In this document: positions 212-10,008 of the stretch, piece after piece
Numbering within the stretch: position 1 is the first letter of the stretch
Layout of the letters: each line of letters opens with the position of its first letter
DNA from: Verrucomicrobium sp. GAS474
GTDB taxonomy: Bacteria > Verrucomicrobiota > Verrucomicrobiia > Methylacidiphilales > GAS474
DNA: 64,000 nt
Assembly (NCBI RefSeq): GCF_900105685.1
Contig: NZ_LT629781.1
Span: 2,728,001-2,792,000 of the forward strand
Reading direction: 5' to 3'
The notes under the pieces: model-generated
Databases searched by the model: none
The model's input: the letters and a program-made list of their open reading frames with translations, nothing else
Told to the model about the DNA's origin: nothing
Made by a program: the position numbers and the translations under genes

Positions 212-730
212 ATGGAACTTTTAAACGGCTTGTTCATTGGCGGCTTCATTTTCCTTACCTACGTCGAATGGGTCTTGGTGAAGGATCTTCGGGAGGTGGG
301 ACGGGAGAAGTACGGGTGGGTGCCAATCACCCTCGTGAAGGCTGTGCTATTGCATCTGGTGACTGTCGTCACTTTCTTCGGTTTAGCCTTCCTTTCTGGC
401 CTTGCTCGTCTTCCCGACTCAGCTTGGACTATACCCGTCATATCAATTATCGCTGTGGCGGCGATGCCGTTGACGATGCTGTGGTGGGCGTTAAAAAAAA
501 CGAATGACTGGATGTTTTCTGCCAAATCCGCGCTCGCCATTTTGCTTATCCTGCCCGCTATCCTTGGCCTGATCATCGGTGTGTGTGTCAGCTTCGGCTT
601 CTTGTTGAAATTCCTCGGCCTTGGCCGTGCGGCTGCTCCACCGAGCGGCGGAAACGGCGGCAATGCCGGACTCCCTATTGTGCAACCCCCTCCCAACTAC
701 TACGATGCGAACGGTAATCCCGTTCACTAG
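212..730 (+). CDS. Small polytopic membrane protein, unknown function
   Basis: A 172-residue protein with about four hydrophobic segments (near residues 4-22, 38-63, 70-92 and 100-130) and a proline/glycine/asparagine-rich tail from about 140. A GGGAGG ribosome site lies about 13 bases before the ATG. I recognise no family. It is the only plus-strand gene in the element portion of the window and lies between the XRE fragment and the terminator of the minus-strand operon. A membrane accessory, immunity or entry-exclusion role is possible but unsupported. Confidence 0.6.
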   Translation: MELLNGLFIGGFIFLTYVEWVLVKDLREVGREKYGWVPITLVKAVLLHLVTVVTFFGLAFLSGLARLPDSAWTIPVISIIAVAAMPLTMLWWALKKTNDWMFSAKSALAILLILPAILGLIIGVCVSFGFLLKFLGLGRAAAPPSGGNGGNAGLPIVQPPPNYYDANGNPVH

Positions 731-820: not shown

Positions 821-847
821 AAAAACCCCCGGCCACTCGGCCGGGGG
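821..847 (-). terminator. Intrinsic terminator of the mobilization operon
   Basis: A perfect 9-bp stem, CCCCCGGCC/GGCCGGGGG with loop ACTC (826-847), is flanked at 821-825 by five A residues that read as a T tract on the minus strand. It lies 16 bases past the stop of the last operon gene (863-1255), so it ends that transcript. Confidence 0.85.
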
Positions 848-862
848 CGTGTGTCAGCGGAT

Positions 863-1255
863 TTAGTTCCGCCCGACCTCAAGCGAGGTCGGCCAGAGCG
901 AAACTCGCTTCCCGCAGATGGTCTTCCGCTTCGGCTTCGATGCCGAGGCATGGTCGGCTAGGATCGCCGCCCGCACCTCCATCGCCGCCCCGTGCGACGG
1001 GGCCGGTGACGGGGCCGTCGGCGGGGTGCCTCCGTCGCCTCCATTGTCCCCGCCGGTCGCCTCGGGAGGCGTCAGGAGCCGCTGCCAAAGAGGCTGTTGG
1101 ATCACGATGAAGACCGCCGCGAACCAAGGCCCAAAGGCCATGACCGCCCAATGGTGGGAGAGGGTGCCCCATGCGACCATCCCTATGGCTGCGAGGGATA
1201 GGTATACGATCTCACGTTTACAATTTTTCCGAATCTGACTATCGGTTAGTTTCAT
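863..1255 (-). CDS. Small membrane protein at the end of the mobilization operon
   Basis: A 130-residue protein. After a basic N-terminus (KLTDSQIRKNCKRE) come two closely spaced hydrophobic segments (about residues 15-32 and 37-55), then a glycine/proline/threonine-rich linker and a basic tail. I recognise no family. It follows the large membrane protein gene by 79 bases and precedes the operon terminator, so it is probably co-transcribed. It could be a small partner of the larger membrane protein, but that is inferred from order alone. Confidence 0.6.
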   Translation of the reverse strand: MKLTDSQIRKNCKREIVYLSLAAIGMVAWGTLSHHWAVMAFGPWFAAVFIVIQQPLWQRLLTPPEATGGDNGGDGGTPPTAPSPAPSHGAAMEVRAAILADHASASKPKRKTICGKRVSLWPTSLEVGRN

Positions 1256-1334
1256 AGTTGTTCCTTTCTTTTTTTCTCACGCAGCCCCTCCGCGCCACAG
1301 CGCCAGACGGCACCGTGTGGGATGGGAAATTGGG

Positions 1335-3311
1335 TTAGTCGGTCTGGCGGCGGGCCGGATTCCGAGGGGGCGGATTGAACCCCGCCGAGGGCGTCGTCTG
1401 CCCCGTGGTGGAGCCGTCGGAATGGCGACGGCCATGCTCTCCGGCCCCGCTCGACGGCGTGGAGCCGCCGCCGCCGGAGTGACCTCCAGTCAGCCAGCTT
1501 CCCGCCGTGGACGGCCCCGAGGTGCCGCCCGCCCCGGAGGCTTTTCCCGCATACCAATCGCCGAGGGCGAGGCCGCCAGTGACGAGGACGGCGGCGACCG
1601 TCGGAATCGAGGTCAACGCCAAAATCCAGATGTAAAGCGATTGATCGACCCCCGCAATCCACGACGTGAGGGAGAAGACCGAGGTGCTTCCGGTGGATGC
1701 CGTTGCCGTCAGACTATTCAACGCGGCGGTCGCTAAATAGACCGCCAGCACAGCGGCCACCGTCTGACTCAGGACGACGACGACGATGCCCTTGATGATC
1801 GTGACGGGCGACCCGAAGAGGCCAGCCGACGCCAACCAGATTGCTCCGGAGGCACAGCTAAGTGGGATCATCCAGACCCCCACAACGATATATCCAAGGG
1901 TCCCGTTTAGAGCGATTTGCAGGAGATTATTCTCTTTGCCCATCGACGGCTGAGGCAGCCAGCGCATTGCCTGTGAGACCTCGAGGACCATGTTTTGGCC
2001 GGGGCCGTCGGGAGCTAAGTACCCGCTGGTGTAGATCATCGGTGCAAGGCTCCCCGTCGCCGATTTCATATCGATGTCGCTCCGAACCTGCTCTCTGACA
2101 GAGCTGAAACCGTAGTCATACAGCCGACCGTAGATCGTTGCAGCGGCTTGCTGCATCGCACTCGGATCGGACGCCGCAGCCCGCGCCGCCGTGGCGACGG
2201 CTTTTGCTGTTTCCTGCGGCGTCGAAGTCGATTCCGAGGGGGAGAACGAGGACGATGAAGAGGAGGACGCCGCCACGGAGACTTGCGAAAACGCCCGATC
2301 AAAGACGCCCTGATAACGAGCCAAGAGAGCGGCGGAGTCAACGTCTGTGCCCTCCATCTTGAGCAGCGCCCCGACGACGGCGGCGCTCGTCCGAACGCCT
2401 CCCTCGGCGGTCGCCTCCAAGGTGGCCGACCTCGTCTGGCAATAGAAATCGAGCGTGTCGCTTTGCGTCGTCGAACCCGACGACCCCGCCCCAGAGGGGG
2501 CCGACGTGTACCCCGTCAGGCTGTCCACGGAGGAGAGGAAGACCCTCGGCCAGAGGCCGCTACTAAAGAGGAGGATCACGGCACCCGCAACCATCGCGGT
2601 CCAAGAGATCCACTCCTGCGGCGGAGCCTTATGGGACGCGATCCTCGAGCCGGTGACGCCGCCCGACGCCAAGGCGACGGCGGCGAGCAAGACCCAAACC
2701 GAGGTGCGGCACCGTCCGCCGATGGTCCCGGTTGCGCCGGTCGAAAAGTCATGGAGGGCGCTGGCGATCAACACGAAGACCGAGGATGAAACCTGCGTCG
2801 AGGTGATGTCGCCGGGGGTCGCCCACGACTGGATCGCGCTGAACGACGGCGTGAGGGACGAGAAGGCTTGGGGGAAGATCTGCGAGTCCGGTGCCACGCC
2901 CTCGTCGGTGCCATCGGAGGCGGAGATGACGCCGGAGCCGTCACCGTTCCATGACGCCGAGGCGGTCCCGGCGCTGAAGCCGAAGACGAGGAGGCCGATG
3001 AGCCAGAGCGACTGGGTGGCGCGTTTGCCGGATCTCAAAAATCGAAGGTAGACCGCATTCGGACTGTTGTACTCTTGCGCAGCCTTCAACTCTTTGGCCT
3101 TCCGCTCGTCCTCCCGTTTCAACCAAGCCTCACGAGCCTGAATCTTGTCCTCTTCCTGTTGGCGTTTGTATTCTTTGTACTTTAAAAAATACGCGGCTTC
3201 GCCTGCCTCCCGATTAAAATCGGATATGTAAAATTCAGCGGCGTCTTCCTCGTCCCTGTACGTCCCCAGCCTCTTCATGCGAGCGCAGTAATCGTCAAAA
3301 TTTAGCATCAT
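1335..3311 (-). CDS. Large multi-spanning membrane protein of the element
   Basis: A 658-residue protein. Residues 1-95 are charged and probably helical (KEYKRQQEEDKIQAREAW). A hydrophobic segment at about 101-119 ends in an Ala-rich stretch that could be a cleavage site or an anchor. Further segments lie near 168-255. A serine-rich spacer follows, then three strong segments in the last third (for example GIVVVVLSQTVAAVLAVYLA) and a Gly/Ser/Pro-rich tail. This layout resembles TrbL/VirB6/TraG-N-type conjugation channel proteins, but I see no diagnostic motif. It sits in the mobilization operon downstream of the relaxase. Family assignment is open. Confidence 0.65.
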   Translation of the reverse strand: MMLNFDDYCARMKRLGTYRDEEDAAEFYISDFNREAGEAAYFLKYKEYKRQQEEDKIQAREAWLKREDERKAKELKAAQEYNSPNAVYLRFLRSGKRATQSLWLIGLLVFGFSAGTASASWNGDGSGVISASDGTDEGVAPDSQIFPQAFSSLTPSFSAIQSWATPGDITSTQVSSSVFVLIASALHDFSTGATGTIGGRCRTSVWVLLAAVALASGGVTGSRIASHKAPPQEWISWTAMVAGAVILLFSSGLWPRVFLSSVDSLTGYTSAPSGAGSSGSTTQSDTLDFYCQTRSATLEATAEGGVRTSAAVVGALLKMEGTDVDSAALLARYQGVFDRAFSQVSVAASSSSSSSFSPSESTSTPQETAKAVATAARAAASDPSAMQQAAATIYGRLYDYGFSSVREQVRSDIDMKSATGSLAPMIYTSGYLAPDGPGQNMVLEVSQAMRWLPQPSMGKENNLLQIALNGTLGYIVVGVWMIPLSCASGAIWLASAGLFGSPVTIIKGIVVVVLSQTVAAVLAVYLATAALNSLTATASTGSTSVFSLTSWIAGVDQSLYIWILALTSIPTVAAVLVTGGLALGDWYAGKASGAGGTSGPSTAGSWLTGGHSGGGGSTPSSGAGEHGRRHSDGSTTGQTTPSAGFNPPPRNPARRQTD

Positions 3312-3368
3312 AATTTTCTTTCTTTAGTTTTTGGCCGGAGGTCTGCAATAGCGCCTCCGGCCCTGTGT

Positions 3369-4331
3369 TTATCGAACTTCGATCTGTGCAGAGGGGGTCT
3401 GCACAGGGTGTGCACAGCTGTGCATTTCCGGCTCGGCGATGGCGACCGCCACCGCATCGATGTGCCCCGGGATCTCGTCGTCTGCTTCTCCGTCGTCTGC
3501 CCAACCCACGGCCTGATGGCTCGATTCCCGTCCTTGCCGCCGGAGCCGGACGCCCGTCCAGCCGACCAACTGCTCCCCATTCCAGCGTGTGCGGACCTTG
3601 CGAACGTCTCTTACCCCGGAGAACGCCGATTCCATCGCGGTCGAGATGAGGGGTTCCAAAGCCTTCTCCGGGCGGAGGTCGTTGGGGTGATCCTCGCGCC
3701 AGAGGTTGACCAAGGCTTTTGACGGGACAAAGGCACCCACAGGAGAATGAGTCCATCTTGCGACCTCCAACTCCCGCCAATGCCCTAGTCGAGCTGGGAG
3801 CCATGCCGCCCCCTCTACATCGTTCTTTTTCTTCGGCCAGGACTTCGCGGCCATGACTTTCATGAACTCAGCTGCGAGCTTGTGCGGCTGGATCGGCACC
3901 GGGGCGTCCGTGCATTGAGCGCTCCAGAAGGAAGCTGCCTCTTCGCAAATCCGGTAGACCTCCTCGTCGGTGATGGAGACGAGATCGTCGCTTTCCTCGA
4001 TGTAGATCGACCATCCCCTAGATGGAGGATCATACGACAAGAGCGCAGCCCGGAGGATGACCTCGGCAGCCCGGGCGACGTTGACAGCCCGGACTGTTGG
4101 CTTAGTGCTTGTCTCTATCACTCCCTTTATCTTCTTCTCTTTCGTTTTGACCGTTATGAGGAAGATGTTTCCTCGAGAGGGAGGCAGCGTCGGGGCATGT
4201 GGAATGTAACCCTCCGGCACATAAGGCAGGCTGTCGAAGGCGCAGACACGATTCCACTGAATGGTATGGATCTCCTCCTTCCGCCGGAGTGTCAGTTCCC
4301 GCGTTGCAGCGATGATCGGGATTAAGCTCAT
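3369..4331 (-). CDS. Unknown protein encoded in the mobilization operon
   Basis: A 320-residue soluble protein starting MSLIPIIAATRELTL. I chose the ATG at 4331 because it overlaps the previous stop as ATGA and is preceded by AAAGGGA; an upstream in-frame extension is arginine/serine-rich and looks non-coding. No family is recognised and no membrane segment is seen. The C-terminal third is rich in charged residues. Position directly after relaxase genes suggests a transfer or replication accessory role, but nothing in the sequence shows it. Confidence 0.65.
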   Translation of the reverse strand: MSLIPIIAATRELTLRRKEEIHTIQWNRVCAFDSLPYVPEGYIPHAPTLPPSRGNIFLITVKTKEKKIKGVIETSTKPTVRAVNVARAAEVILRAALLSYDPPSRGWSIYIEESDDLVSITDEEVYRICEEAASFWSAQCTDAPVPIQPHKLAAEFMKVMAAKSWPKKKNDVEGAAWLPARLGHWRELEVARWTHSPVGAFVPSKALVNLWREDHPNDLRPEKALEPLISTAMESAFSGVRDVRKVRTRWNGEQLVGWTGVRLRRQGRESSHQAVGWADDGEADDEIPGHIDAVAVAIAEPEMHSCAHPVQTPSAQIEVR

Positions 4332-4528
4332 AGTGTCCCTTTCTTTGCTCTTCGGGCTTGAATCCCGCGTCCTAGCCCCTGAGCGAACCGACGAAGCCGA
4401 ATGGCGTCCTCGGCCTCCGCCCTCGTCATGACGAGGCCAAAGCAAACCACCATCTCCTCCTCGAGGTGGGGGTAGGCTTGGGCGGCCTGATCGGGCGTGA
4501 GGGCGTCCCATTCTTGATCCTTATTCAT
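4328..4528 (-). CDS. 66-residue unknown protein between relaxase and downstream gene
   Basis: A very small gene joined on both sides by 4-base ATGA overlaps: its start overlaps the relaxase stop (4525-4528) and its stop overlaps the next start (4328-4331). The protein starts MNKDQEWDALTPDQAAQAYP, is acidic in its first half and ends in a basic segment (GLGRGIQARRAKKG). The overlaps are the main evidence that it is translated. No function is recognised. Confidence 0.62.
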   Translation of the reverse strand: MNKDQEWDALTPDQAAQAYPHLEEEMVVCFGLVMTRAEAEDAIRLRRFAQGLGRGIQARRAKKGTL

Positions 4529-6195
4529 AGATCCTTCTCCTTGTTGCCGAGATCGATCTTCGGCGTCTTTTTCACCTTCGGTTTGCCATCGTCGCCAACC
4601 TCCGTCGCGGCTCCCGCGTCGAAGTCCGAACCCTTCAACCATGACGCAAGGTCGAACGCCGTCTTGGCCCACCCGAGGCCGGGGATGAAGCGGCACCCGA
4701 TGGACAACGCGGCGCTCATCGCAATCTGCTTTGAAACGGTTTTAGCAACCGTTTCAATGGCGCTGTTCGCGGAGTTGCCATCTAGGAGCATCTTCGCCAG
4801 CTGGTACTTCGCTTTGAGTTTTTGCGCCTTCTTGAACGCAGCCTTGGCCTTGCGGGCGGCGGCATCTTCTTCGGCGACCTTGCGAGCGCGTGCTTTCGCG
4901 GCGGCCTCTCCATGAGGCAGCGTTGGCATCGGCATCGGCCCCTTCGAGGTGGACGTCGCCTTGTCGGTCTTCGCCTTCTCCGCCTTGGCCTTTTCGGCCA
5001 GGGCGTCGGCATCCTTACGCGCTTTTTCTGCGAGCCGGTGCGCCTCGGGATCGTGTCGGCGGGGCAGGTCTCCCTGCACGCCGAAGACATGGATTTTGGG
5101 CTTGGCGTCGTCAATGAGGGGATCAGCGCCGCCGCGTAATTCGGATGCGCCGCCGTCGCCGCCGCTCCCACTCCGGCGCTTCCCGGCGGTCGGCGTCATG
5201 AAGACCTCCGGCGTCGAGAGCGAGGGGATTCCGCTCGCCCGGAGCCGGTCGAAACGGAATCGCTCGCCGTCAACAGTGAGGGTCGGGTTGAGACGAAAGC
5301 CTCCGGCTTTCGTCGTCGCCTTGATCGTCAGGCGACCCGACGCCTTGAGGGCATCGATGCCCTCGGCGTCGATCTTCTCGGCGAGCCGGACGAGGGCGTC
5401 GTCGTGGCGAGAGAGTGCCGCCGACCGAACGGCGGCGACCTTCTCCGCATGGGTGCCGCTGTTCGGGCTGATTGGTCCCGGCATTGGCGTCTGCGTGACA
5501 GTGGCTCCATCGTCGTTGATGTCAGCCCCCTTCGATTTCGGGGCTTTCTCTTTTCCGATTGTTAGGTCGTTTCGGTCAGGATCACCCTTCCCCGGTTCGA
5601 CCCCCACGGCCCACTTCATACGCTGAAGGCCCTTCAGTTTCTCGGGGCGGATGTCGAGGCACTTGCCCGTTTCCGGGTCGTAATTCGACGTGGCGTGGTG
5701 GCTGTGATGGGCCTCCGTATTAAGGTGCGTTCCGGCAACCCACGGAGAGTTTGGCGCAAGCTGATCCGCTAACAGCGGATCGTTTTCCGCGAGGATGTCG
5801 GCGGCCAAAGCCTTGTACTCTTCCTGTGTCGTCATCCCCTCCACCCGTTCGACGACCGAGCGGGTGAAGGGGTCGAGGTCGGACAGGTCGAGGTCGGGGC
5901 CAACGGCGGTTGCCTCGGCTTCTCGCCAAGCATCGAGACGGCGGGAATAAGCGTCCCAGCGTTCGAGGGACAACCCATCATGCCGAACTTCCCGGCCCTT
6001 GATGTCGGGCCGAAAAGCGGCGAACGCACGGACATTCTCGTCCGGCGTCGGGGTCACCTGACCATATCCCTTGAGGTCGCCGCGTGCCTCGCATTTGGTC
6101 CCTTTTTTTCCAAGGATGTAGGCGATGTTCCGGGCGGCATCGCCGCCCTTCCAGCATCGCACGATCATTTTCGGGAGCGGGGGGAGGGTCGTCAT
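4525..6195 (-). CDS. Putative relaxase (mobilization nuclease)
   Basis: A 556-residue protein. The N-terminus (MIVRCWKGGDAARNIAYILG) matches the style of MobA/VirD2-type relaxases, which start with a short strand and a helix ending in Y-x-x-G. Near residues 155-175, THLNTEAHHSHHATS has the spacing of the metal-binding three-histidine motif (HxN/D...HxH). The expected catalytic tyrosine cannot be fixed by eye. From about 370 on the protein is Lys/Ala-rich and probably coiled, with a hydrophobic stretch near 490-535. It follows the MobC-like gene with a TAATG overlap, which supports a relaxosome role. The family (possibly a divergent MOB type) is uncertain. Confidence 0.6.
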   Translation of the reverse strand: MTTLPPLPKMIVRCWKGGDAARNIAYILGKKGTKCEARGDLKGYGQVTPTPDENVRAFAAFRPDIKGREVRHDGLSLERWDAYSRRLDAWREAEATAVGPDLDLSDLDPFTRSVVERVEGMTTQEEYKALAADILAENDPLLADQLAPNSPWVAGTHLNTEAHHSHHATSNYDPETGKCLDIRPEKLKGLQRMKWAVGVEPGKGDPDRNDLTIGKEKAPKSKGADINDDGATVTQTPMPGPISPNSGTHAEKVAAVRSAALSRHDDALVRLAEKIDAEGIDALKASGRLTIKATTKAGGFRLNPTLTVDGERFRFDRLRASGIPSLSTPEVFMTPTAGKRRSGSGGDGGASELRGGADPLIDDAKPKIHVFGVQGDLPRRHDPEAHRLAEKARKDADALAEKAKAEKAKTDKATSTSKGPMPMPTLPHGEAAAKARARKVAEEDAAARKAKAAFKKAQKLKAKYQLAKMLLDGNSANSAIETVAKTVSKQIAMSAALSIGCRFIPGLGWAKTAFDLASWLKGSDFDAGAATEVGDDGKPKVKKTPKIDLGNKEKDL

Positions 6196-7154
6196 TATTT
6201 ATTCCCCCTCGTCGCGTTGATCGAGTCGACAAGTGCCTCGACGCGCTCGACCAACTCCGGGGCTACAGCCCCGGAGTGCAGCGCGGCAAGGCTTTGATTC
6301 AGGAGGTTCCCAACGCGGCGAATTTCCCCAACCGCCGCGACCAGCGCGACAGCGTCGAGGCCGACGATGTCGCAGAAATACCACGCTGCAACGACTGCCG
6401 CCCGCTGGCGCGGCGGCAGCTTCATGATGTCTTTGGCGAGAGCCCGAGGAACACGGAATGTCACCGCGACAGTCGAGCGTTCTGCCTCCGGCGCGTGCCG
6501 CTGGCGGCCCTTATCACGGGCCTTACGGGCGGCGGCAAGCACGCCAGCCCGCGCTGCTTTCGCCTCCGCCGTAAGCGGAGGACGACCCCGCTTCCGCTTT
6601 TCCGGCGCGGGGGAGTCCGGCGCATTGTTATTTGCGGGGGCCTGATCCTTATTTTCCGACGCGGGGGGGATGTCCGCGTATTTGATATGGGCGGGGGTGA
6701 TGTCCGGAATTATCGGCGCAGGGGTTAAGTCCGCGTTATTATTTGAGCCAGCTACGCGCTCAGCCCCCCGCACCTCTGGTGCTGTGGTCTGGCGCTCGTC
6801 GGCTTCGCCTCCGCTGGCAGGGGACGGCTTCGCCTCTCCCCTTGACCCCTCAGAGGGGGACGATGTCCCCCCATCCCCCTCTGCCTCCGCCTTGTGGGCG
6901 TCGGCATGGCCTAGCTCGGCCTCCCCGGCGGCAGGAGCGCCATGTGGGTGCAAGGCCGCGTCCGGGACGACGACCGCGCCGACCGGAGGGTTCCCCGCGA
7001 GACGATCAAGGAGGCGACGGCGAGCCTCATCCCCGGTGATTTTCTCGCCATCGCGGAGAGCCGCGAGACGCACTTTTTCGATGTCCGCGCCGGATGGTTC
7101 GACGACCCCGTCGTCGAGCCGGACGCCGGGGTCTTGGTTCCGAAAGAAGGCCAT
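6195..7154 (-). CDS. MobC-like relaxosome accessory protein
   Basis: A 319-residue protein starting MAFFRNQDPGVRLDDG. The start at 7154 is fixed by a 1-base TAATG overlap with the preceding gene; a longer upstream frame is Arg/Ser-rich and non-coding in character. A low-complexity middle contains an AT-hook-like KRKRGRPP. The C-terminus has STVAVTFRVP followed by EIRRVGNLLNQSLAALHSG, close to the MobC pattern (I-x-x-x-G-N-L-N-Q-x-A...L-x-x-G). MobC proteins help the relaxase open oriT DNA. Its stop overlaps the relaxase start. Confidence is higher for the C-terminal domain than for the rest. Confidence 0.65.
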   Translation of the reverse strand: MAFFRNQDPGVRLDDGVVEPSGADIEKVRLAALRDGEKITGDEARRRLLDRLAGNPPVGAVVVPDAALHPHGAPAAGEAELGHADAHKAEAEGDGGTSSPSEGSRGEAKPSPASGGEADERQTTAPEVRGAERVAGSNNNADLTPAPIIPDITPAHIKYADIPPASENKDQAPANNNAPDSPAPEKRKRGRPPLTAEAKAARAGVLAAARKARDKGRQRHAPEAERSTVAVTFRVPRALAKDIMKLPPRQRAAVVAAWYFCDIVGLDAVALVAAVGEIRRVGNLLNQSLAALHSGAVAPELVERVEALVDSINATRGNK

Positions 7155-7399
7155 TACTTTGCCCTCCGAGGCAGCACCTCTTCGATATTCAAAAAGACCT
7201 CCCGTAGCCGTGAGTCTCGTGAACCACGAATGGGGATAACGACCGAAATAAGCCACCCCCAAGCGCACGACCGTACGCCGAGGTGGTAGCTGTTCCGACC
7301 GTGTCGAGCGACAGCTAGTGCGGCGAAGGTTGAGGCCGCATCCGAATAGTCCTCCGCGTCGATGTGGGCGCGGAAGCCCTCGCATTTGAACTTTCTCAT
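7154..7399 (-). CDS. 81-residue element protein, unknown
   Basis: Starts MRKFKCEGFRAHIDAEDYSD at 7399 with an ATGA overlap to the previous gene and ends in a TAATG overlap with the MobC-like gene. The pattern F-x-A-x-x-x-x-E-D-Y-x-D-A-A-x-x-F-A is common in short proteins of mobile elements with no known biochemical role. The arrangement supports real translation. Nothing else can be assigned. Confidence 0.6.
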   Translation of the reverse strand: MRKFKCEGFRAHIDAEDYSDAASTFAALAVARHGRNSYHLGVRSCAWGWLISVVIPIRGSRDSRLREVFLNIEEVLPRRAK

Positions 7400-7875
7400 C
7401 GGCTGGCTCCAAGACCGAGCCACCCGCTCTTCTTAGGTTGTTCCGTGACGACCGGGGCGACGACCTCGGCGACCTCGGCCAAAAGGACCGGCGCGGCCTC
7501 GACGACGGGCGCGGCAACGACCTCCGGCTCTTGGGCGACGGCGACCTCGGCGATGAGGGGGGAATTAGTCGCCGCCGTCGATGGTGACGCCACACGCGGT
7601 TTGCGCGTCCGTTTCGCGTCGGCGACGTGTTCGGCGGCTCGTAGGATTGTCCTCACTCCCTGCGGTTCCTCGAGGCGGGCGATGAAGCGTTCCGCCGCTT
7701 TCTTAGCCGCCTTGGCTTCGTCTTTGCGGTACTCCTCCACGGCTGCTTCGAGGGCTGCCTCGAGGTCGGCGGCGAGGTCCGCGACGACGGCCTCAGCGAG
7801 CCGGGAATCCGCGAAGACGCGGGACACCGGCGCGACGATTCCCGGACGATACTGATCTAGAAGAGCAGCGATCAT
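7396..7875 (-). CDS. Alanine/valine-rich element protein, unknown
   Basis: A 159-residue protein starting MIAALLDQYRPGIVAPVS. Residues 30-75 are a strongly helical Ala/Glu/Lys stretch, and the last third is a low-complexity Val/Ala/Pro/Glu tract before a basic end. The start at 7875 overlaps the previous stop (ATGA), and the longer upstream frame is Arg-rich and not gene-like. No family is recognised. It lies immediately after the leader gene of the operon. Confidence 0.58.
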   Translation of the reverse strand: MIAALLDQYRPGIVAPVSRVFADSRLAEAVVADLAADLEAALEAAVEEYRKDEAKAAKKAAERFIARLEEPQGVRTILRAAEHVADAKRTRKPRVASPSTAATNSPLIAEVAVAQEPEVVAAPVVEAAPVLLAEVAEVVAPVVTEQPKKSGWLGLGASR

Positions 7876-8246
7876 GAAGCCCTTTCGCTCTGGCGCAGGG
7901 CGCGGGCTTTGGACTTGAAACGTTCGTCCGCCGGAAGACCCGGAAGCAGATGACCCTCTCGCTCGAGCCTGTCGATAAAGCGGTTGACGGCCTCTTCGCT
8001 GTAGAGGGCTGTGCTTCCTTTTCCGCCGCCGACGGCGGCGACCAACCATTTGTGGTGCGTGCCTTCGTCGAACCGTTTCGATTTGTGGTCGAAGCAGTAG
8101 TTAACAATCGTCTCGCGGCAGTAGAGGCGACGGAGCCCGGAGTGCGCGACGTTTAGGCGGTTGTATTCCGTCCCTGAAGGGGGAGGGGGCGCAAGATGCG
8201 CTTTTGAGAGGCGGGAGCAATCCGTCTCGTGAATCGGTGGGGCCAT
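7872..8246 (-). CDS. Small DNA-binding-like protein, first gene of the operon
   Basis: A 124-residue protein with no membrane segment. The central part (CRETIVNYCFDHKSKRF) and the end (LYSEEAVNRFIDRLEREG) resemble the compact helical DNA-binding folds of excisionases or operon regulators, but no diagnostic motif is certain. As the first gene of the mobilization operon and the nearest gene to the integrase, an excisionase or regulator role is plausible by position only. The start ATG at 8246 has a weak ribosome site. Confidence 0.55.
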   Translation of the reverse strand: MAPPIHETDCSRLSKAHLAPPPPSGTEYNRLNVAHSGLRRLYCRETIVNYCFDHKSKRFDEGTHHKWLVAAVGGGKGSTALYSEEAVNRFIDRLEREGHLLPGLPADERFKSKARALRQSERAS

Positions 8247-8573
8247 AGCAGCGAGTCGACTAGCCCTGTGTTGACAGGGTCTAGGGCTCGCCGCTCTCGC
8301 TCCCTTTACAGGGCGACCGCAGCCACATTGCCGAGGGTTTCACCCTCGGTCACCTCCACCGCTTTCGCGGCAACCCACAAATCCGTTGGACGGGGGGAGA
8401 CTGTGCCCCACCGGTTGGACTCCTGCCCTTATGGGCTGCCGGAGCGCCGGTGATGTGCGTAATCTGATTGATTTTGGCAAAAAAGGCAATGCCTTTTTGC
8501 TTGTTTCTTGTTGTGCTAGGGCCTAAAAGCTCGCAAGTCCTTGTCCGCTTAACGAGTTGCGGAGGGTAAAAAA
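8247..8573. other. 327-base non-coding stretch with hairpins, possible oriT or regulatory region
   Basis: No convincing ORF. It holds an 8-bp hairpin CCGAGGGT/ACCCTCGG at 8331-8349, a CCCTGT/ACAGGG repeat near 8267-8282, and G- and C-runs around 8390-8425 that can pair. It separates the mobilization operon promoter from the end of the integrase gene. An oriT, an operon promoter or a small RNA would fit, and the sequence alone does not choose between them. Confidence 0.4.
8477..8500 (-). terminator. Hairpin downstream of the integrase gene
   Basis: GCAAAAAAGGCA followed by ATGCCTTTTTGC forms an imperfect 11-12-bp palindrome about 75 bases past the integrase stop. The A and T runs inside the arms could give a terminator on either strand, though there is no separate T tract. 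Confidence 0.4.
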
Positions 8574-9881
8574 TTATGCGGTAAGGGCCAAAATGGGAGC
8601 CATCTTGGGCGGCAGGATGGCCCAATATTCTTTCGCGGCGGCTTCGGTTATCCCCCGGTTGCAATAGAATTTCTCAAACGTTGCTACGTCCTCATGGCGC
8701 ATCTCCTGCGCCACTTGCTCCTTGTTTTTGACGCTGGCGTACCGGTAGCTCCCGAAAGAATGGCGGAGCCCGTTGTCTACCCACTCGACCCCAGCCGCGA
8801 GGCGCAGTGCGTCGAGCTTCTTCCGTCCATTGGTCGGCCAAAGCCTCTGGCCGGGGAGAAGGGGAAAGGCGAGCAGCCACGCCTTGAGGGTGTCATTGAT
8901 TGGGATGTCCCGGCCCTCGCCCATCTTCGCAATCTCAACAGGAACATGGATGAGTTCCGGCATCCGCACTTGGTCGGCGGTGAGTTGTTCCAACTCCTCC
9001 CGCCGCACCCCGGAGAAGGCACCGATGCACAGCCATGGGACGAGTTCCGGCCAGCTTTTCACCTCGCCCGTCCCCTCGTTCTCGACCCCGTAAGCTGCCG
9101 TTTCGATTAGCTTGCGGAGGGCTTCCGGCTTGAAGACTCCCACCGACTTTTTGGGAACCTCGGCTCTTTCCAGAACGGCAAAGACGTTCTCCGTCTCTTT
9201 CGACACGTACCCCTCCTTCTGCCACCAGCGGAAGGCAGTCCTCAACTGGTCCTTGACGAGATTGCGGGTTAGGGGGTGCTTGTAGTTCTTCTCCAGCCAC
9301 GTCTTAACGGCGTCCCGTTTCAAGACAGCCTCGGCAAGAGGGAATGTGCCGAACTCCTCGGCGAAAGGAACGGGGAGGGGAGGTATCGGAGCGGGCTTCT
9401 CGCCCTTGGCCTTCTTTGCCTTATAGGAGGCAAGGGCGCGGACGTGTTCGATCTTCGTCTGATCCGACAGACGCAGGAGCCGCGCCCGAATTGTCATATA
9501 GTACGTCGTTTTCCTCTGAACCTCGGGGAAGCGGTCTAGGTAGATCTCGACCGCTTGAAGAACGGTAGTGCCGGGGTGCTTGACCCTTGCGTTCGCCAGT
9601 AAGAAGGTGGCGGCTTCGGTTAGAGTCCTCCCATAAGGGCCAAGGAGTCGCCATGCGGCGAGGGCATCTTTAACAACAGACTGAGGGAGTTCCTTCGACG
9701 CCTCCGCGTCTTTTTGGGCGAGTTCCTTGCGGGAATCCCGTTCGGCCTCGGCAAGGGGCCTCGTTGGGAAAAATAACCGCTGACGGCGAAACACGCCGTC
9801 CGGGTCTTGAATCTTGCCGAGATCGAGGCACCACCGAAGTTCTCCGCGAACCGTCACCCTCGCCACTTTGCCTTTTGCCAT
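8574..9881 (-). CDS. int: Tyrosine recombinase / integrase
   Basis: A 435-residue site-specific recombinase. Catalytic region: arginine I in FSGVRREELEQL, the beta-hairpin lysine in EIAKMGEGRDIPI, the box II arginine in NGLRHSFGSYR, then MRHEDVATFEKFYCNRG with the nucleophilic tyrosine. Box II has Asn where the usual HxxR histidine stands, a variation I believe occurs in some related integrases. The ATG at 9881 is preferred; an upstream TTG at 9908 is in frame. It starts about 90 bases from a broken tRNA-Thr, the expected position for an element that uses that tRNA as its attachment site. Confidence 0.88.
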   Translation of the reverse strand: MAKGKVARVTVRGELRWCLDLGKIQDPDGVFRRQRLFFPTRPLAEAERDSRKELAQKDAEASKELPQSVVKDALAAWRLLGPYGRTLTEAATFLLANARVKHPGTTVLQAVEIYLDRFPEVQRKTTYYMTIRARLLRLSDQTKIEHVRALASYKAKKAKGEKPAPIPPLPVPFAEEFGTFPLAEAVLKRDAVKTWLEKNYKHPLTRNLVKDQLRTAFRWWQKEGYVSKETENVFAVLERAEVPKKSVGVFKPEALRKLIETAAYGVENEGTGEVKSWPELVPWLCIGAFSGVRREELEQLTADQVRMPELIHVPVEIAKMGEGRDIPINDTLKAWLLAFPLLPGQRLWPTNGRKKLDALRLAAGVEWVDNGLRHSFGSYRYASVKNKEQVAQEMRHEDVATFEKFYCNRGITEAAAKEYWAILPPKMAPILALTA

Positions 9882-9970
9882 CCCTAAATCATGGCAACAA
9901 CTTGGCAACAGTACAAGTTAGTAAAACCTAACCTGTTGATTATAAGAGTGATATTCTCTTGGAGCCCCGG

Positions 9971-10008
9971 CTTACGAAAGCGTTGCTCTACCCCTGAGCT
10001 AAAGTGGC
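9971..10008 (-). tRNA. 5' half of tRNA-Thr (anticodon CGU), interrupted
   Basis: Read on the minus strand from 10008: acceptor strand GCCACTT, TA, D-arm GCTCAGGGGTAGAGC, then ACGCTTTCGTAAGC with anticodon CGT at 9976-9974. The sequence then departs from any tRNA: no matching 3' anticodon strand, T-arm (GGTTCGAATCC type) or acceptor AAGTGGC follows. This is the 5' half of tRNA-Thr joined to element DNA next to the integrase, so it marks one attachment junction with the crossover in or just after the anticodon loop. Confidence 0.75.

Follow-up and report, generated by a model that had tools for sequence, protein, structure and literature searches.

The window analysed here is a 64-kb stretch (G000:C1:2728001-2792000) of a host chromosome that consists of a single contig of 3.76 Mb. 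At its left end lies most of a segment of 11,541 bp, with a GC content of 60.5% between flanks of 64-67%, that continues 1.57 kb beyond the window edge. Coordinates below 1 lie left of the window (position in L007 = coordinate + 20000). A perfect 33-bp direct repeat, TTACGAAAGCGTTGCTCTACCCCTGAGCTAAAG, forms the two ends of the segment, called the element below. From left to right, the features are:

-1607..-1533, minus strand: tRNA-Thr(CGT), its 5' half and anticodon loop covered by the left 33-bp repeat
-1569..-1537 (L007:18431-18463): left att copy, 33 bp, inside tRNA-Thr(CGT)
-1475..-1457: left copy of a sub-terminal 19-bp direct repeat, TGGCAACAACTTGGCAACA
-1295..-1011, plus strand: open reading frame
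-936..-181, plus strand: open reading frame
116 to -111, minus strand: HTH_3 regulator, 75 aa (PF01381, E 4.6e-12), crossing the left window edge
212..730, plus strand: membrane protein, 172 aa, four hydrophobic segments, convergent with the operon
825..848, minus strand: intrinsic-terminator-like hairpin after the stop of gene I, 10-pair stem (9 GC) with a T-rich tail
863..1255, minus strand: gene I, 130 aa, two hydrophobic segments
1335..3311, minus strand: gene H, 658 aa, six hydrophobic segments by hydropathy
3369..4331, minus strand: gene G, 320 aa
4328..4528, minus strand: gene F, 66 aa, 4-nt overlaps on both sides
4525..6195, minus strand: gene E, 556 aa, divergent relaxase of the PF03432/MOBP superfamily, judged by its PF03432 match and its relatives
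6195..7154, minus strand: gene D, 319 aa, MobC-like accessory protein, whose homologues adjoin the relaxase in G213, G510 and G562
7154..7399, minus strand: gene C, 81 aa, 4-nt overlap with gene B
7396..7875, minus strand: gene B, 159 aa, family matches sub-threshold only
7872..8246, minus strand: gene A, 124 aa
8247..8573: intergenic region separating the integrase gene from the operon; perfect inverted repeats lie at 8331-8349 and 8480-8498
8574..9881, minus strand: tyrosine integrase, 435 aa (PHROG integrase, E 4e-18)
9892..9910: right copy of the 19-bp repeat
9972..10004: right att site, 33 bp, a displaced tRNA fragment that repeats the 5' half of tRNA-Thr(CGT) and its anticodon loop

The operon and the ends of the element

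All nine minus-strand genes that the original prediction placed between 8246 and 863 are present as open reading frames, and the six junctions it described as overlapping by 1-4 nt have the coordinates it gave. The overlaps are of 4 nt between A and B (7872-7875), B and C (7396-7399), E and F (4525-4528), and F and G (4328-4331), and of 1 nt between C and D (at 7154, where the ATG of gene D begins) and D and E (at 6195). Gaps of 57 nt and 79 nt separate G from H and H from I. Overlapping genes without homologues or codon bias would have weakened that prediction. Homologues of genes D and E occur elsewhere in the same order, and a host-codon score, trained on six host genes, favours the annotated frame in each of the nine genes except D and F, where that frame ties for best. 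Gene F, whose score is shared with another frame, is the one whose coding status is least certain.

The operon was also said to end at a perfect terminator, and just past the last stop, at 848-825, there is indeed a GC-rich hairpin of 10 bp followed by a T-rich stretch (GCCCCCGGCC-GAGT-GGCCGGGGGT, then TTTTGTTTGG). Terminator-like sites as a class are not enriched in the region (13, against 11.9 in shuffles), so what speaks for a terminator here is the strength of this single stem and the place where it lies. At the other end of the operon, the intergenic region at 8247..8573 is a candidate place for both a promoter and oriT. The HTH_3 regulator gene at the window edge had been overlooked.

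Most of the operon resists naming. Gene A matches no family in Pfam, NCBIfam or PHROGs and may, by eye, be excisionase-like. For genes G and H, neither the plasmid collection nor other genomes of the class (202 and 285 of them) yielded a homologue. I infer that genes A-C and F-I are accessory.

The borders first drawn, between integrase and terminator, fall short of the element, which reaches from one 33-bp repeat to the other. The empty site is seen in G539, a genome of the same genus (L026), where the two flanks meet at one intact tRNA-Thr, the left flank running up to it and the right flank from it. The tRNA-Thr of G539 starts with GCCACTT, as does the displaced half that ends at 10008, whereas the chimeric tRNA-Thr of the host starts with GCCGCTT, which turns one A-U pair with the opposite 3' strand (AAGTGGC) into G-U. 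It follows from these starts that the element supplies the tRNA with its 5' half and with the DNA upstream of it. In G442, also of the same genus, a tRNA-Thr(CGT) lies on the same side of the aconitase gene, and the element's relaxase is absent from the genome. The 19-bp repeats just inside both ends are possible arm-type sites for the integrase. No Rfam family was found in the window.

The integrase scores E 2.8e-4 against PF00589, under the cut-off. Of 335 genomes of the class, 128 have homologues of it, frequently several apiece, so that many uncharacterized islands probably exist there.

The relaxase and its MobC-like partner

The product of gene E was originally taken for a relaxase, possibly of a divergent MOB type, and it appears to be a divergent MOBP-type relaxase, belonging to a small PF03432 lineage in Verrucomicrobiae. 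A profile check against MOB families gives gene E an E value of 1.7e-4 with PF03432, at a score (22.3 bits) short of the curated cut-off of 24.6. Among its relatives, the score is 27.6 bits in G213, above the cut-off, and 23.1 in G510, and the G562 protein has no match at E 0.01. Three of the four members of the lineage thus match PF03432, one of them above the cut-off, and those three match nothing but this relaxase family. The hallmarks of MOBP, a tyrosine near the N terminus and a histidine motif (motif III), are present in gene E. Y26, H164 and H166 do not vary in an alignment of the four, and three of them share H157. The G213, G510 and G562 proteins are only about 25-29% identical to gene E.

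A profile comparison of gene E with other relaxases gave nothing significant, the alignment itself being poor, and an AF2 model of its product, made from a three-sequence alignment, has a mean pLDDT of 40, too low to reveal an HUH nuclease fold. PDB sequence searches returned chance matches only. Scans of viral, plasmid and genome contigs found no relative other than the G213 contig. The lineage is rare, occurring in 3 of 384 genomes of the class in one draw that includes gene E's own genome; G562 surfaced only through inspection around integrase hits. Since the lineage sits at the detection edge of current profiles, similar elements may be under-counted.

The relaxases of G331 and G039 also match PF03432 and fall outside the lineage. 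Two further mobilization loci of Verrucomicrobiae lie in G331. At one (G331:C10, L109:7597-11821) an integrase accompanies a small DNA-binding-like gene that overlaps a different PF03432-type relaxase gene, and at another (G331:C12, L110:4405-7555) a relaxase gene lies beside a VirD4-like gene.

Then there is the partner gene. A comparison of gene order, suggested at the outset, shows that a MobC-like gene shares 1 or 4 nt with the beginning of the relaxase gene in all four members: the element, G213 (JAIXOR010000078.1, a Verrucomicrobiaceae MAG), G510 (C12) and G562 (C2). The family of this MAG, which is of the same class as the host, presumably places the host in Verrucomicrobiota, class Verrucomicrobiae. 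The conservation of gene D lies in the C-terminal part of its product, and an (R/H)RxGxxxNQ block is present in the MobC-like protein of all four members. Pfam's own MobC family, PF05713, matches nothing in the host genome or the relatives tested, so the protein is named MobC-like only, for its gene position and that block. A tyrosine integrase is found near the module in three of the four: in the element, about 2 kb from the pair in G510, and, as a homologue of the element's own integrase, about 3 kb from the pair in G562. None was identified beside the G213 pair, which is close to a contig end. The pairs of G510 and G562 are compact, with no transfer genes within the stretches read. The three pairs differ from the element in their other neighbours, and homologues of its genes G, H and I were not found with them.

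Transfer machinery and a candidate helper

That the element shows no transfer ATPase was correctly seen, in that a Walker A motif is absent from every one of its open reading frames; nor does any transfer-family profile match. Extension to the left, proposed as a way to find type IV secretion genes, reaches the end of the element after 1.57 kb and adds just the HTH_3 regulator and the plus-strand reading frames, of which the element has three in all.

Elsewhere in the same chromosome is an integrative and conjugative element (ICE) of about 62.6 kb (G000:C1:702439-765096, L019-L022). It sits at tRNA-Asn, bounded by an integrase gene adjoining the tRNA gene and by a 25-bp repeat at 702439 and 765072. 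The only VirD4-family match of the host genome, at 711.7 kb, lies within it, together with a TrwC relaxase (E 1.3e-74), TrbI/VirB10 (E 5.8e-21) and a VirB4-like ATPase, which has weak matches to P-loop_TraG and TraC and was not detected by PF03135. By eye, further reading frames resemble VirB2, VirB5, VirB6, VirB8 and VirB9. Its relaxase is of a family (MOBF) other than that of gene E. The ICE looks complete, and its co-residence with the element makes it a plausible candidate helper. It also carries metal-efflux-like genes, recognized by eye, and a large reading frame resembling a methylase/helicase.

A proposed mobilizable element, its rivals and its counterparts

I propose that the 11.5-kb segment is an integrative and mobilizable element (IME) resident in tRNA-Thr(CGT), and I put the probability of this reading, with the scheme of excision, nicking and helper-dependent transfer that follows, at about 0.85. 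The att repeats, the tRNA-Thr target, the empty site in a relative, the integrase and the relaxase are all in place, and no coupling or channel protein is recognized. Excision would come about through recombination between the 33-bp repeats, carried out by the integrase. With help from the MobC-like protein, the relaxase would then open and nick an oriT that the element carries, and the relaxase-bound single strand would be passed to the VirD4-type coupling protein and type IV channel that a conjugative element in the same cell provides, the 62.6-kb ICE at tRNA-Asn being a candidate lender. In the recipient, the element would become circular again and insert in tRNA-Thr, giving that tRNA a new 5' half and upstream region. 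Support for the mobilization originally proposed comes from the family match of the relaxase and from its MobC-like partner, from the exactness of the att sites and their unoccupied state in a relative, and from the lack of transfer ATPases. Because the element is precisely bounded, a relative offers the empty site and the ICE is in the same chromosome, mobilization in trans is directly testable.

One might instead see a remnant of a larger conjugative element, immobile after the loss of its transfer genes. The lack of a transfer ATPase and of recognizable channel genes is what such a remnant would show, as are five operon genes of no known family. Against it stand genes that are all open and coupled, perfect att repeats and an intact integrase and relaxase, and the same compact gene pair, without transfer genes in the stretches read, recurs in G510 and G562; I consider a remnant quite improbable. 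Still harder to credit is a phage satellite or defence island, in which the nuclease-like protein initiates replication rather than transfer. The weakness of the PF03432 match in gene E and the several genes of no family leave some room for it. Against it, three members of the lineage match a relaxase family and nothing else, the MobC-like overlap is found in four of four, PHROGs recognizes on the element the integrase and one marginal match, PADLOC gives a single marginal match (gene A), and the scans of viral contigs found no relative.

A different kind of alternative keeps the mobilization and changes the mechanism. The element would be a non-canonical IME in which the helper's channel is reshaped by a VirB6/TrbL-like subunit, the product of gene H, and perhaps by an exclusion factor encoded by gene I. 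There are precedents: TraG of SGI1 is reported to reshape the mating channel of its helper, and TrbJ and TrbL of an IncP island are proposed to do likewise (PMC5389848, PMC5704250). Gene H, whose product combines six hydrophobic segments with a long loop and a tail rich in Gly and Ser, could be a channel protein that goes unrecognized, and the putative VirB6 of the ICE likewise has six hydrophobic segments. Topology alone is weak evidence for such a role, however: in sequence, gene H matches no family, nor the VirB6-like protein of the ICE, its single-sequence AF2 model is unusable (mean pLDDT 43), and no homologue lies near the pairs of the other lineage members. A VirB6/TrbL-like role is possible by topology and precedent, and the non-canonical mechanism as a whole is unlikely. 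The broader version is doubtful to the same degree: a family of Verrucomicrobiota IMEs with a divergent MOBP relaxase, a channel subunit of their own (H) that sequence does not recognize, and accessory factors, together remodelling the channel of a co-resident TrwC/MOBF-type ICE.

The comparison with SGI1, GISul2 and the IncP island can be taken a little further. Like them, the element is small, integrated and, on the scheme proposed, dependent on a helper, and it too has a large membrane protein. It differs in that gene H has no sequence match to the VirB6, TrbL or TraG families, and in having a relaxase, whereas SGI1 and GISul2 are described in a review as lacking one.

The element fits the canonical IME, which brings an integrase and a relaxase but lacks a transfer machine (PMC5704250). 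With a complete-looking ICE in the chromosome that could supply the machine, there is no need for the claim, made at the outset, of an undescribed system. A literature search returned no study that deals specifically with mobilizable elements of Verrucomicrobiota. Among the closest counterparts are the MobP elements NBU1, NBU2, Tn4399 and Tn4555 of Bacteroidetes, which, like the element, integrate site-specifically, bring their own relaxase and lack both a coupling protein and any recognized channel gene; a tyrosine integrase is used by NBU1 as well (PMC5704250). Judged from their descriptions, the element differs from these four in its phylum, its divergent relaxase and MobC-like protein, its integration at the 5' half of tRNA-Thr and its genes without homologues. 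The new features are the divergent module of relaxase and MobC-like protein, found in Verrucomicrobiae, and the presence of an ICE alongside it in the same chromosome.
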